From positions 1,550,001-1,614,000 of the forward strand of contig OY101123.1 of the NCBI GenBank assembly GCA_956465555.1: a stretch of DNA of 64,000 nt. The letters run 5' to 3'. The stretch comes from Nitzschia sp. pyKryTriq1 (lineage: Eukaryota > Bacillariophyta > Bacillariophyceae > Bacillariales > Bacillariaceae). This document shows, piece by piece, positions 37,182 through 43,266 of this stretch. The first letter of the stretch is position 1. Each line of letters begins with the position of its first letter. The notes under the pieces are model-generated. The model worked only from the letters and a program-made list of their open reading frames with translations. It searched no databases and was not told where the DNA came from. The position numbers were made by a program, and so were the translations under genes.

Positions 37182-38463
37182 TATCGATATGGACGTCTGT
37201 GCAGGTGAGAGGTACAACAACGCGCTTTATGCCGACAAGGAAAGCGTCTCATCGTCATCAGATCGTGGCTCGTGGTGGAGAGCGAACGGAAATCTTTTCA
37301 TTCTTTTTCTCGCGCGGGGATGAAGCATCGCGTCAATTTAATCGTTGCTTGAGTCGTCCCGATCGAGACCAAACATGCCACGTGGCAAAAATCTAGGTAC
37401 CCATCTCCAGCTGTCTACTTCGTACAGTCAGTATTATTTGTACTCGTACTTTACCGGTAGAGAGAGCTAGTACTCGTACTACCTACTCTAAACCTTCGAG
37501 GCCCCCGTGCAGAGTAGTAGACTCAATATGTACACTGTTTTGCAACTGAAGTGTACCGGTAGTAACTGCTGCTGGTCGTGTTCTTGTACTACTGTAGTAC
37601 TCATTCATCTCTATTTGAAGAATAGTTCTTCTGCTACTGTACTAGATAGTAAGGGTCAGCTAGCTTCTTGGGCAATTTTCGACCCACCATGCGCTGCTTC
37701 TTCCTTGGCGATAAGTGGCAGCACCACCACGGCCGCTTCCTGCCCAAGCAGGATAGGCAGAGAATGAATGAATAATCATGGACGAACCCAACGAATAATG
37801 ATGGAAGACAAAGACTTTCACTCTCCACTACTAGTACGTACATGCTGTGCGTAAATAATGATGATCGTACATTGCAACTTGTGTTGTGGCTCGATACTTC
37901 CTGTGCAGTTTCAACTACTACTACTCGTACTGTTCACTGCAAATAAGCTACGCACGTATAGTACTGCTGGTACCGGTACAGTAGGTTCCGAACATGCCTG
38001 CTGGTCGGTCCCGGTAGTACCAGTACTTGGACCGCCCGGTAGTGGGTATTAGCGCGGTTGTGGAATGCCTCGACAGCGAAGGGCATATTTATTTCGAAGA
38101 AGTCAGAGTAGCACTCAGAAAAACTACATAAATAACAGACATACATACAACATACAACATACATCATACACACACAGTGAGGCTAGGCGACGTAAGAATA
38201 CTACTGCATCGCCAATATTATTATTTATAATCACCATCTTCGCCTCTCTCTCCATGCGCTTGAAGCTTGAATACTTTACAAGTACCTGTACGCGTACTTC
38301 CGTACTAAAATGATAGAGAACAAGCATTTCGAATTTCGGCTTTTTCGCTCGGCAGCAGTACCCGTTTCCTGCTGTTGACGAGATCGTCAGACATTGAAAC
38401 TGTTCCCTGTTGGTAGTCTTCAATGCAATAATATCATCTCCAACTACCAACTATCAACGCACA
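37182..38463. other. Divergent promoter region upstream of the selenoprotein-like gene
   Basis: About 1.3 kb without a supported gene. TACCGGTA words occur near 37453, 37553, 37970 and 38015. CATACA/ACATAC repeats lie at about 38138-38175. Small frames on both strands here are not convincing. Confidence 0.5.
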
Positions 38464-38902
38464 ATGTGTACGAGTACTATTGAAGATTCTTCATTGGCAA
38501 CGCAGACTAGCAAGAACAATGCGGCGACGCCAAAATTCACAGTAACCTATGTACGTTCAATGCCTTTTCCGGTTTCCTTGGCCGTTTATTTTCCAACACC
38601 TGACTGACCTTTTATTATATTCCCCTATTTTTCCGTAGTGCCATAACTGAGATGGAGGGCAGGGAGAGATGGCAGCGGTCGTGCAGTGCATCCGCGAAGT
38701 CTTTCCAGGAAGTTCTATCAAAACGGTTCGTATTCACAGCTTCAGAGCGCGTGTCACCATCGATACGGACGCGTTTGGTAAAGAACAATCGGTGTGGTCG
38801 GGGAAGCAAAGCAATCTTTATTCAACTTTTCCCAAGCGGCGGAGAAAAACAATCGATATGATTAAATCCAGTTTGGCGGACCTTCGAGAAACTCTCCGGT
38901 AG
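38464..38902 (+). CDS. Probable selenoprotein of the SelW/Rdx family (in-frame TGA read as Sec), two exons
   Basis: Exons 38464-38550 and 38639-38902, joined at a GTACGT donor and TTTCCGTAG acceptor, give 116 residues if the TGA at 38648-38650 is read as selenocysteine. The product has the Rdx layout: strand KFTVTY, then C-H-N-U (30-33), a helix (MAAVVQCIREVFPG), strands (IKTVRIHSFRARVTID), a VWSGKQ loop and a C-terminal helix (TIDMIKSSLADLRETL). C-x-x-U right after the first strand is the redox motif of SelW, SelT and SelH. Read as a stop, the first exon gives a meaningless 32-residue peptide, while the conserved-looking 84 codons beyond would be untranslated. The TGA lies in the last exon. 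Likely a thiol redox protein of the cytosol. A SECIS element must exist downstream; only a weak candidate is seen. Confidence 0.72.
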
Positions 38903-39870
38903 AACCAAGCGAGAATGCCGGGGGTTGCAGCAGCCCAGACAGAGTGTTTCTTCTTTCTAAATCGAGAATGAAAGCCAGACGTATCTTCGTGAGTTGTGCT
39001 CTGTGATTGATATTCGACGCGAAGAAAGAAATTGTCTATCCGGGCTTCTACTTGACTGTACTATGTTCAAAATGAGGCCAATATTGCTACTTGTTGGCCC
39101 GAGGTTTGCAATGATGTGGTATGCATAGTAAGATTTAGGAAGTAGACCATAATACGGTTATGCCAGAGTGTATATTTCGCCGGTTGGATCAACAAGTAGT
39201 ACGTAGACTAGTCAATGGACAGCCCGCGGCCAACACGGTGTCATCTTAGAAGTACTTGACGAGGTAGTACACGACCTCCTTCTTCTTCTTCCTCCTCCTC
39301 CCCTCCGGCCGGTTGACTATCAGGGCTAGTACTACTACATCTCTACAAACATCTGTGTAGTACGTAGCTCCTCTATTAACGGTAGAGATGGTAGAGATCT
39401 CGACACGAAGTACGAGTAGTTCACTGTTTCGCAGAAGATTTCCGATCTGTTTGAAGGAATGAAAGAATGAATCATTCGACTTGAACCAAACGGTTGACGG
39501 ATGGACAATTACGTCATCTTCCATCTTCCTCCCGCGCGTCTGCGCGTGCGCGCATCAAGCATCGTGAATCGCGCGATTTGCGCGATGGCACGTTCGCAGA
39601 GGGCATAGGACGCCGTTATGAGTACCAGGTACCTGGTACGTATGTCGTACTCGTACTGTACCGGTACGAGTGTAGCGCTCACCAACTTCGAGCAAATAGC
39701 CTTGTCATTCGTTCTCGCGTCATCGTCATCAGTTATCATCCATCATCCCATCATGCTCTCACCCTCCAAGAAAACGTCGGGCCGATGCTCGTTGCATGCT
39801 CGTCAACCTTTGTTCTGCTTCTCAGAATTCATCAAGAAGGACGACGAGTGCTCTTTTCCGACGCCTTGGG
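38903..39870. other. 3' region of the selenoprotein-like gene and promoter of the hydrolase gene
   Basis: It should contain the SECIS element if the Sec reading is right. A TACCGGTA/GGTACC cluster lies at about 39623-39666. Frames on the minus strand (39246-39524) cover low-complexity AGTAC words and are not convincing. Confidence 0.5.
39068..39108 (+). promoter_or_regulatory. Weak SECIS-like hairpin candidate
   Basis: ATGA (39072-39075) is followed by GGCCAA, a 12-base loop, then TTGGCC and CGAG (39100-39103), with CAAA/TTTG outside. The ATGA/GA pair fits the SECIS quartet, but the inner helix is only 6 bp and the loop lacks the usual AA, so it is not a canonical element. It lies about 170 bp after the stop codon. 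Confidence 0.15.
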
Positions 39871-41013
39871 ATGATAAAGCCTCTTGTTTCGCTTTGCATC
39901 ATATTCGCAGTCATGAGTATCGTTGCTTCCTCGGCGGTGGCATTTGTTCCTCTCGTAAGTCGGCTGAGTCGGTCGTCGTCCGCCAGTACTAGTACTGGTA
40001 TCTTGAGACAAGTATCGATCGTCAATGGCGGCGGGAAAAGCTACTCTGACATGACCATCGCAGACACCCCGCTGGGTACCAAGAAGGGGTCTGAGCTCCT
40101 GGACGGACTAGATGTGTATTGTGTTCCTTCGAAGAGCGACAAACATCCTCTTTCGGTGTATGGCATCGAAAGCTCGCAGCCCAAGGAGGACGACAATGTT
40201 TTATTGATGCTACATGGAAGAACCTGGTCGTCCGTTCCCGTGTATCATTTGCACGGTGGACCAAAGGCTGCTAAGAACGGTCTTGAAAGTCACAGTTTGA
40301 TGGAAGAGTTTCTTTCGAAAAAAATCCAAGTCTATGCCATGGACTTTCGAGGTTTCGGAGGGACACCTAGAGACGCGACGAACGGCGTTGAACCTAACCG
40401 TTGTGTTGAAGATGTTGAGTCTGTACTTTCATGGATCCGAGAGAGACATGGTCCCAAAACAGACCTTTCGCTACTTGGTTGGTCCCAGGGAGCTTTGGTT
40501 GCGCAGCTGGCTGCTCAACGACGTAAACCTGTTTTCTCGAAACTGGTCCTGTACGGATCAATTTATGATCCGATGGTTCGATATCCTAGGGAGCCTCTCT
40601 ATGTGAAGCAGAAAGATACTGCTCCCGACATAGAGAACACGTATGATGGGGCAGTGGAGGATTTCACAATTGAGGGGACGATTCCGCCTGAGCCTGCTGA
40701 TAACTTCGCCGAAGCTGCTCTTCTCGCTGATCCGATCAAAGCTCGATGGACGCATTTGCACGAATTCAACAATTGTGACCCAGCTCGAGTCCATCTACCT
40801 ACACTTGTTGTGGCTGGTGACCAAGACCCATACTCGCCGATACACGTGCAACAAGAACTCTTCGTGAACCTTGGTCGTGGCTCCGATAAGACATGGAGTA
40901 TTCTTGCGAATGCCGACCATGCGGTGCACTTGCTAGAAGGACGAAAAAGATTCGCGACCGTCGTGGCTAGTTTTCTTCGCAACAGTAAAATGCGGGAAGA
41001 ACGACCTAATTGA
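39871..41013 (+). CDS. Plastid-targeted alpha/beta hydrolase
   Basis: 380 residues from the ATG at 39871, chosen because MIKPLVSLCIIFAVMSIVAS plus the motif AVAF-VPL makes an ideal signal peptide and plastid cleavage site; the frame also has an ATG at 39796 that would bury this. The hydrolase fold shows the oxyanion stretch (LLMLHGRTWSSVP), the DFRGFGGTPRD strand, the nucleophile elbow G-W-S-Q-G with Ser near 205, the acid in GDQDPYSP (about 317) and the His in NADHAVHLL (about 350). It probably cleaves an ester or lipid; the substrate is unknown. It resembles serine aminopeptidase/monoacylglycerol-lipase-type hydrolases. Tail to tail with the CRTISO-like gene, 45 bp apart. Confidence 0.87.
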   Translation: MIKPLVSLCIIFAVMSIVASSAVAFVPLVSRLSRSSSASTSTGILRQVSIVNGGGKSYSDMTIADTPLGTKKGSELLDGLDVYCVPSKSDKHPLSVYGIESSQPKEDDNVLLMLHGRTWSSVPVYHLHGGPKAAKNGLESHSLMEEFLSKKIQVYAMDFRGFGGTPRDATNGVEPNRCVEDVESVLSWIRERHGPKTDLSLLGWSQGALVAQLAAQRRKPVFSKLVLYGSIYDPMVRYPREPLYVKQKDTAPDIENTYDGAVEDFTIEGTIPPEPADNFAEAALLADPIKARWTHLHEFNNCDPARVHLPTLVVAGDQDPYSPIHVQQELFVNLGRGSDKTWSILANADHAVHLLEGRKRFATVVASFLRNSKMREERPN

Positions 41014-41058: not shown

Positions 41059-42798
41059 TTATTTTACTGGTAGTCTGATTTTTCCTAGCATTTCAAAGTG
41101 CTTTGGGAGGCTGACGAGAGTATTCGCCGTCACTGCACCAGAAGCAGCCGTTGCAGGGACACCAATCCCCGGGAATGTATAGTCCCCACATAGCAAAAGG
41201 CCGTTCAATGGAGTCGTGTGGCCGGGTAAAGTATGCTTTCCAGCTTCGACTCGTGGTCCATAGGCCCCGCGACTTCGACGCAAGAATCGTTCGTGAGTCA
41301 GAGGTGTACCAATCTGGACAGTCCCCGGCACGGCCCTTTTTCTGGCATCCGGAACATATTCCTCGATAGCACTCCACAAAAAGTCGGCAGCGTCATCCTT
41401 CTTCTTCTTGTACTCCTCGGAGTTTCTGTCCATTCCCTCCCACCATTCGTACGGCTCCGTTGCGGGGACGTATGCATGAAGGACGTGCTTTCCTTCGGGT
41501 GCTAGTGATGGGTCGATAAGAGAGGGCATAGAGCAAAGTACAATATTTCTTGGATCCTCCACTCCTTCAGGACCGTCCCAATTACGAACAACAGCCCATT
41601 GGGCAGGAAAGTCGGCGCTTGGCTTTTCTGGAAGACCAGCGGCATCAATCCCAGCGTGGATATGAATGAAACTTTTCAAATCGGGTATACCACCAGTGGA
41701 TTCATCAGTATTGATGAGAGACGCCATATAATCGATAGCTTTTTGGTTTAGAGAACCATTTTCTCGGGCTTTTGAGAGAAGTTTGTTGGTGATGTATGGA
41801 TCGGCATTGGAAACAACAGCTTGCCTTGCTCGAACTACCTTCCCACTGGCTAACTTTACCCCGACCGCTCGGTCGTTCTCAACAATGATTTCATCCACAT
41901 GGCAGTTGAGACAAACTTCACCGCCATATTTCTTTACACCTCTCACAAGCGCGTCCGCAATTGAACCACTACCACCCTTGGGAAAGTCAAGCGTCACTCC
42001 AGGGCGATACCAGTCTGCCAGCATATATGCCATGACGGCATTCATGGTTCCTGCAGCTGGTAGACCTTGCAGTAGGAAGCACAGCATATCGAGCCAATTC
42101 TTGACAAATTTGTTTTCAATCTTCATTTCTTCCATAATGTTTGCGAAAGGCTCGTTCAGCGCCTGTCCTTGCTGCAGGGTAGCAAACAGCTCTTTGGGGT
42201 ACTTGAGCAGAGTGAAAATAGCACCTGGGTCCTCTCGCAACGCCATGGAAGTCAAAGCCTGGGCTGCATTCGAAAGAGGAGTCATTCTCTCCATCAACGC
42301 TGCAAATTCCTCTTCTGCACCGGGTCCACCATGTTGCTTCAAAACGTCACCGAATTCTTCGGGGCCAATTTTCGCGGCAAACTTTTCTCCATTAGGCAGA
42401 ACCGTCCCCCATCGATCGTATGTAATCCACTCGCAGTCTTCCTCGATAATTTGAAAGATATTCTTCAATGGGTTGGGAGAACGGTCGGTACTGAATCCAG
42501 AGTAGAGTGATGGGCCAGATTCAAAATGAAATCCGCGACGGGTCCAAGAGTGGGTAGCACCACCAGGAGCATCATGCGATTCGAGGACGACTGTCGACTT
42601 CCCACAATGAGACAATAGCGCTCCGCAGGAAAGACCTGCGAGGCCACTTCCAATTATCACCACGTCAACCTCTGTTGGAACTTCTGGCTCGGCAGCCATT
42701 CTCAGCTGAAATGGAGCCGCGTTCCCATTTTGCCCCAGAAAGGCACTTGATGTTGGGAGAAAACCCAGCAACGCTGCTAAGGCAACGGACTTCGCCAT
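41059..42798 (-). CDS. CRTISO-like carotenoid isomerase/desaturase-family flavoenzyme, plastid-targeted
   Basis: 579 residues from the first ATG (42798). The presequence is MAKSVALAALLGFLPTSSAF-L, a signal peptide with plastid motif. The FAD-binding site follows (VVIIGSGLAGLSCGALL, then VVLESHDAPGG), as in phytoene desaturase and CRTISO. The core has FHFESGPSLYSGF, TLDFPKGGSGSIADALVRG and a C-terminal FAD motif, LLLCGDYTFPGIGVPA. CRTISO proteins isomerise cis-carotenes; diatoms carry several paralogues, and one (CRTISO5) has been reported as a hydratase in fucoxanthin synthesis. Which paralogue this is cannot be told by eye. The sequence just 5' (TTTCTTGCAG) looks like an acceptor, so a leader intron is possible. 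Confidence 0.88.
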   Translation of the reverse strand: MAKSVALAALLGFLPTSSAFLGQNGNAAPFQLRMAAEPEVPTEVDVVIIGSGLAGLSCGALLSHCGKSTVVLESHDAPGGATHSWTRRGFHFESGPSLYSGFSTDRSPNPLKNIFQIIEEDCEWITYDRWGTVLPNGEKFAAKIGPEEFGDVLKQHGGPGAEEEFAALMERMTPLSNAAQALTSMALREDPGAIFTLLKYPKELFATLQQGQALNEPFANIMEEMKIENKFVKNWLDMLCFLLQGLPAAGTMNAVMAYMLADWYRPGVTLDFPKGGSGSIADALVRGVKKYGGEVCLNCHVDEIIVENDRAVGVKLASGKVVRARQAVVSNADPYITNKLLSKARENGSLNQKAIDYMASLINTDESTGGIPDLKSFIHIHAGIDAAGLPEKPSADFPAQWAVVRNWDGPEGVEDPRNIVLCSMPSLIDPSLAPEGKHVLHAYVPATEPYEWWEGMDRNSEEYKKKKDDAADFLWSAIEEYVPDARKRAVPGTVQIGTPLTHERFLRRSRGAYGPRVEAGKHTLPGHTTPLNGLLLCGDYTFPGIGVPATAASGAVTANTLVSLPKHFEMLGKIRLPVK

Positions 42799-43266
42799 TT
42801 CAAAGACTGCAAGAAACACACAGAACAGAAACTAATACTGACTCTGCAAACTATTACACGCTCCTCTGTCGTAAAAGTTTGAAGTTTGAGCAGACTATGA
42901 AGTAGAATTGAAACGCATTGTAATGATGATGATGCTCCAGTATCCTTACCGGTCCCGATAATACTCTCGTATTGCATCGGCATCATCGCAGCCAGCGAAA
43001 ATCACGAAAACACGTCATTCGAGCTCGAAATAAGACTCCTCAGAAGGGTTTGGTTCACGAATCATTTTGCCTGTCTCCGTTTCAGACTACTAGAGCTTGA
43101 GTAGACTAAATAATAATAGTACCTTATTTGCCAGACGAATTATTGTACACACTAAACGGGTACTCGGGTACTACTAGCTCGAAGAATTATTGTAAGATGT
43201 GGATATAGTGATAAACATACATAGCAAAACTTACTAGTCTACAAAATCTGTTCAGACCCTCTAGTA
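42799..43266. other. Promoter of the CRTISO-like gene and 3' end of the LRR gene
   Basis: About 470 bp with CTAGT/ACTAG words near 43085-43170. No coding frame is supported. Confidence 0.45.

Follow-up and report, generated by a model that had tools for sequence, protein, structure and literature searches.

A Nitzschia gene pair with a probable Rdx-like fold whose internal TGA very likely encodes selenocysteine

Two questions are raised by a short stretch (positions 38464-38902) of the 64,000 nucleotides of Nitzschia sp. pyKryTriq1 DNA analysed here, which we call the window (G000:C9:1550001-1614000): (i) is the TGA that interrupts its reading frame decoded as selenocysteine (Sec), rather than as a stop, and (ii) to which family of redox proteins would the product belong. 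Genome searches covered 40.65 Mb in 20 contigs. The earlier note had placed a SelW/Rdx selenoprotein at this locus, with a splice donor at 38551 and an acceptor ending at 38638 that brings TGC-CAT-AAC-TGA directly after the junction, and these elements are found in the sequence as it described them. The gene model is as follows, in window coordinates.

38464-38550, + strand: exon 1, 29 codons from the ATG, MCTSTIEDSSLATQTSKNNAATPKFTVTY, ending in PKFTVTY, the presumed first beta strand
38551-38638, + strand: intron of 88 bases, GT-AG (GTACGT...TTTTTCCGTAG), phase 0 between Tyr29 and Cys30, at a place conserved in the paralogue
38639-38902, + strand: exon 2, C-H-N-U-D-G-G followed by a predicted helix, three strands and a helix, with the TAG at 38900-38902
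38639-38650, + strand: putative redox motif TGC CAT AAC TGA, Cys30-His-Asn-Sec33, aligned to TGC CGT AAC TGA in the paralogue
38648-38650, + strand: TGA of codon 33, very likely read as Sec (TGA at the same column of the paralogue, flanking protein conservation and Sec machinery in the genome)

No ATG precedes that of exon 1 in the open frame. The donor is GTACGT, and the acceptor AG, which closes TTTTTCCGTAG at 38638, is the sole AG within the intron. With the TGA read through, the spliced product has 116 residues, MCTSTIEDSSLATQTSKNNAATPKFTVTY from exon 1 continuing in exon 2 as CHNUDGGQGEMAAVVQCIREVFPGSSIKTVRIHSFRARVTIDTDAFGKEQSVWSGKQSNLYSTFPKRRRKTIDMIKSSLADLRETLR. The sense codons that separate the TGA from the TAG number 83, not 84 as first counted, and the placing of a C-x-x-U motif after a predicted strand is supported, PKFTVTY being followed by CHNU.

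A genome-wide search with this product returned its own two exons and one other place, L014 (G000:C6:1705950-1706237; E 9.0e-15), the match containing one TGA within the aligned stretch. The L014 locus (G000:C6, about 1705839-1706255), absent from the earlier note, reads as a second selenoprotein gene of the same kind, with the motif CRNU. Its parts are given below, in L014 coordinates.

1389-1418: exon 1, MSQPKFTITY, ending at the same residue as exon 1 of the window gene
Between the exons: intron of 115 bases, GTGAGT...TTTTTAG, at the same codon boundary (Tyr/Cys) and in the same phase as in the window gene
From the intron through the TAA at 1804-1806: exon 2, CRN-TGA-DGGYQEF...

Exon 2 of the two genes aligns over 87 codons, gap-free, at 34% identity and with TGA on TGA. 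The string YC-x-N-TGA-D-G-G is common to both, and the two proteins share a W-S-G-x-Q-x-N-L block and R-R blocks. Across the 86 codon pairs that exclude the TGA, pN is 0.49 and pS is 0.79; amino-acid-changing differences are depleted (Fisher p 6.4e-5), which argues that the stretch downstream of the TGA has been maintained as protein. Synonymous sites are saturated between the pair, so the duplication is probably old. A reverse search of the genome with the L014 product found only these two genes. The codon pattern TGY-NNN-AAY-TGN-GAY-GGN-GG has three matches in the 40.65 Mb, two of them being these genes, and the reversed control pattern has none. The third match (G000:C17, L036) was dismissed as chance, as it contains additional in-frame stops. 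A Cys codon in place of the TGA would also fit the pattern (TGN), and none was found in the genome. The earlier note would have given up its reading if no homologue carried Cys or Sec at the column of the TGA; within the genome, L014 has a TGA at that column. The intron it had proposed gains support from the conserved position in the paralogue.

The genome is also equipped to decode Sec. It contains three tRNA-Sec genes with the anticodon TCA, a SepSecS gene and an SPS2 of the Sec type, whose own Sec lies within GUACK. Five other genes carry a TGA within their family match: a SelT-like gene (L003, motif CASU), a Sep15/SelM gene and three of the four GPx matches. For EFsec, 28 EF-Tu-like matches were obtained in the genome, none above the cut-off, and the second of these (L025) reads by eye as an EF-Tu-like protein. 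Two of the tRNA-Sec genes (L006/L007; G000:C4:2830576-2830822) are arranged in tandem, 161 bases start to start, and the third is on contig C5. A search of the genome for MsrA gave 15 matches, two with TGA, which we have not used as evidence. Published counts provide a context for these numbers, 20 to 44 selenoprotein genes being reported for diatoms (PMC7539508).

Because the second gene keeps the same intron, the TGA and a similar downstream protein, we consider it very likely that the stretch is a genuine gene and that the TGA inside it encodes Sec. An in-frame TGA, homologous coding sequence on either side of it and a TGA aligned to a TGA are all present, and the Sec reading put forward in the earlier note is supported by the L014 TGA, by the protein constraint that follows the TGA and by the Sec machinery of the genome. 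Such an alignment of TGA on TGA, across a divergent paralogue with its intron at the same place, makes both a SECIS model and transcripts unnecessary for this reading.

Other ways to account for the TGA have been weighed against Sec decoding. A changed code, with TGA as an ordinary sense codon, was rejected, since 6 of the 22 stop-to-stop open frames of at least 300 codons in the window (open frames, not proven genes) terminate in TGA. The TGA could instead be spliced out, as both genes have an in-frame CAG a little past it that could serve as acceptor (24 bases into exon 2 of the window gene and 27 bases into that of L014); the redox motif would be lost with it. The codons that would be skipped are, however, conserved as protein, with C, N, TGA, D, G and G identical and with D and one G differing at silent positions only, and in both genes the TAG acceptor of our model abuts the pyrimidine tract, no other AG coming before it there. 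We regard removal of the TGA by splicing as very improbable. Hardly more credence can be given to the proposal that the pair are pseudogenes, or that the TGA is a true stop followed by downstream initiation. TGA does act as a stop, both in the standard code and in the window, but a pseudogene would not be expected to show amino-acid constraint, and no frameshift, across 87 codons at saturated synonymous divergence, and the TGA is retained in both copies. As for a downstream start, L014 has no counterpart of the Met at exon-2 residue 11, its own first exon-2 Met being residue 50.

A Sec-encoding gene of this kind would be served by a SECIS element in its 3' UTR. The Rfam SECIS model has no match in positions 38300-40300. 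It also has no match in a set of seven loci, among them SelT, SelM and three GPx genes (the SPS2 locus, L023, was left out of this set), nor any match genome-wide at E 10, where 133 of 718 first-look candidates were scored. Since the model passes over these other selenoprotein genes as well, its silence at the window says little. The flank of the window gene does contain the following candidate.

39100-39179, + strand: SECIS-like hairpin with a helix I, an AATGA core (39110-39114) set against GA (39166-39167), a 7-bp helix II and an apical part of ~35 bases

Hairpins with an AATGA core recur in the 3' flanks of other selenoprotein genes of the genome. Earlier scans of these flanks had used varying rules. 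The rule finally adopted, which asks for an AATGA core together with helices I and II, was fixed after the hairpins, including that of the window, had been seen. It gives a site in five of the six other selenoprotein genes: GPx L022 (score -25.1), GPx L021 (-21.4), SPS2 (-18.9), SelT (-16.7) and, weakly, GPx L020 (-11.1, within the range reached by 31 to 41 of 406 background segments), with none in SelM. The window flank has one site, at 39112-39166, with a score of -17.6, and a score at least as good occurs in 8 of 406 background segments and in 19 of 1000 shuffles; the best site of L014 scores -15.7, reached by 15 of 406 segments and 61 of 1000 shuffles. The choice of core bears on these counts, as among 180 segments a score of -17 is reached by 5 with an AATGA core, 34 with ATGA and 70 with any TGA.

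When folding is unconstrained, the window hairpin appears in both the MFE and the centroid structure; its core lies within an internal loop, a placing also seen in SelT. The L014 candidate is missing from the MFE fold of its sequence. By folding energy, 181 of 200 shuffles are at least as good as the window hairpin and 156 of 200 as that of L014; in the other genes, shuffles as good number 60 of 200 for SelT, 7 of 200 for SelM and 0 of 200 for GPx L022. The search for a SECIS in the 3' flank, as envisaged in the earlier note, has thus given no Rfam match but a hairpin at 39100-39179 that is suggestive of one. In the 3' flank of the SelT-like gene, two AATGA hairpins score equally (L003 2089 and 2329) and are possibly two SECIS elements.

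For the second question, that of family, predicted structure provides one line of evidence. AlphaFold models of exon 2 alone, built with two sequences in the alignment, show a helix, three strands and a helix for both genes, with one additional short helix in the window model. The earlier note had read two strands in place of three, and its Rdx-like order of elements is supported by the predicted structure of both exon-2 products. For the window protein, the best of five models has a pLDDT of 77.7 and a pTM of 0.69, the other four lying at 50-52; for L014, the values are 68.7 and 0.60. Strand 1 is encoded in exon 1, outside the modelled chain. The element order of SelW is beta-alpha-beta-beta-beta-alpha, and the presumed exon-1 strand joined to the exon-2 prediction would give this order, which fits an Rdx protein. 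Foldseek, run with the exon-2 model and hence without strand 1, gave no match at E <=0.001 and no Rdx protein in the best 50 of 464 rows, and a sequence search of the PDB gave only chance matches.

The Rdx family (PF10262) comprises SelW, SelT, SelH, SelV and Rdx12, which are thioredoxin-like CxxU proteins. It is the sole match of the window protein among 24736 Pfam families (E 0.11), and the score of 13.2 bits lies below the Pfam cut-off of 22.6 bits. Similarly, the SelT/W/H model TIGR02174 is the sole match among 18950 NCBIfam models, at 13.1 bits against a cut-off of 34.2. In the search against the SelW, SelT and SelH families that the earlier note had suggested, these models are the only ones matched, but both matches fall far under their cut-offs. 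The L014 product is listed for neither model at E 10, a setting at which the HMMER filters drop most weak matches, and the one Pfam row that it does have is for a helix motif unrelated to Rdx. For comparison, the Rdx score is 48.2 bits for the SelT-like exon found in this genome, and 39.5 and 57.9 for provisional sequences of SelH and SelW.

The Rdx match begins at residue 26 and profile position 3, which would place Cys30 and Sec33 at profile positions 7 and 10; by arithmetic from the match starts, these are the CxxC columns of a clear Rdx domain in L001. A C-x-x-U/C motif between the presumed strand 1 and the predicted helix 1, a feature of Rdx proteins, is found in the window protein. By contrast, the tGxFEI(V) consensus that PMC10650576 describes in the C-terminal half of the family is absent from the pair, which has SFRARVTI and EYPVKVVI where the strand is expected. 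The pair falls short on two of the tested Rdx features, and we do not assign it to SelW. The name SelW given in the earlier note is set aside in view of the low scores in both profile libraries, the unmatched L014 product, the missing tGxFE(I/V) signature and a lean of the profile comparison to SelH. The pair is too divergent to be filed under that name, and resembles the SelW/SelT/SelH group.

The pair shares with Rdx proteins a C-x-x-U directly after a presumed strand 1, a small single domain and a predicted helix, three strands and helix, but differs in having D-G-G after the Sec and W-S-G-x-Q-x-N-L and R-R blocks in place of tGxFE(I/V). In common with SELENOH, as judged from the provisional SelH sequence, are a strand, a Gly and a Trp-[Ser/Thr]-Gly strand end, followed by the C-terminal helix; the pair lacks, however, a basic stretch upstream of the motif, and the residues after the Sec differ from those of that provisional sequence. 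An N-terminal RKRK motif is reported for SelH (PMC10650576). SELENOW is matched in its CxxU, in size and in the predicted order of elements, whereas its FEV motif and GGF/P region have no equivalent in the pair, and the genome has, as a separate gene, a SelW-like protein of the Cys type with two Rdx domains. This last gene (L001/L002/L004; G000:C9:1133824-1134547, minus strand), in which both domains carry CTGC, lies ~0.45 Mb from the window gene.

It is also possible that the pair is an ordinary, fast-evolving SELENOH (or SELENOW) orthologue, both families being on record in algae, and was duplicated in this lineage, an account that is compatible with Sec decoding and that we find credible without thinking it probable. 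When the pair is compared, profile to profile, with eight Rdx sequences, the probability is 81% over 66 columns, a value reached by 0 of 200 full-column shuffles and 0 of 200 motif-kept shuffles. The probability stays at 81.1% without the SelW row and drops to 38% without the SelH row, which favors a SELENOH relationship, but removal of the SelT row likewise lowers it, to 59%. The SelH and SelW rows are, moreover, those of the provisional sequences, and without both of them the probability is 6.4%, which 183 of 200 motif-kept shuffles reach. The comparison thus leans to SelH only through provisional sequences. Single-sequence probabilities (3.6% for SelH, 5.0% for SelW and 8.6% for SelT) do not separate the subfamilies, and the Rdx scores of the provisional SelH and SelW contrast with 13.2 bits for one member of the pair and no match for the other. 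According to PMC7539508, SELENOH and SELENOW are among the Sec families widely distributed in algae, and in PMC2375036, 16 selenoprotein genes are listed for Thalassiosira pseudonana, SelH and SelW both being absent from the list.

Alternatively, the pair may found an undescribed family, defined by C-x-N-U-D-G-G and the W-S-G-x-Q-x-N-L block and kin to Rdx at the level of fold only, a suggestion that we advance tentatively and judge somewhat doubtful. Such a family would have held the Sec form in both of two old duplicates, with an intron placed right at the edge of the active site, and neither the cut-offs of Pfam and NCBIfam nor, presumably, gene callers pick up the pair. The two motifs are not described in the titles and abstract openings of the literature listed; supplementary tables or SPDB may list the pair. 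If the Sec reading of the pair is correct, a eukaryotic selenoproteome gains two genes unrecognised by profile libraries, and tests of selenium-dependent function become possible on a small CxxU protein with Sec in both old duplicates.

We think it probable that the window holds a two-exon nuclear gene, in a eukaryote rich in selenoproteins, for a 116-residue selenoprotein, one of a divergent pair of Rdx-like C-x-N-U redox paralogues with an Rdx-like fold and oxidoreductase function. As judged from sequence, the pair may work like an Rdx protein, and could be a distant relative that lies closest to SelH. In our model, the transcript would be spliced and the UGA of codon 33 decoded as Sec by tRNA-Sec together with a 3' UTR SECIS. 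The chain would then fold as an Rdx-like (thioredoxin-like) domain, in the order beta-alpha-beta-beta-beta-alpha, in which Cys30 and Sec33, located between strand 1 and helix 1, could form a reversible selenenylsulfide. The role of the product would be that of a thiol-disulfide oxidoreductase in the cytosol or the nucleus. A hydrophobic targeting segment ahead of the motif is not apparent by eye, and L014 has only ten residues there; a cytosolic or nuclear place is therefore the simplest guess.

Relatives were also sought beyond this genome. Collections of viral contigs and of genome contigs contain 58 and 33 stretches with the pattern, respectively, none of them kin by tblastn, and a codon-pattern scan of viral contigs gave 15 stretches, none of which continues by eye as the window protein. 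Closer to the gene, a long open frame at 39700-41013 (+ strand) of the window is by eye alpha/beta hydrolase-like, and another at 41059-42831 (- strand) resembles by eye a phytoene-desaturase-like or carotenoid-isomerase-like oxidoreductase. Elsewhere in the genome, the GPx locus L020 contains, at about 2390-2700, a long array of ~10-base units (catcgtccaa).
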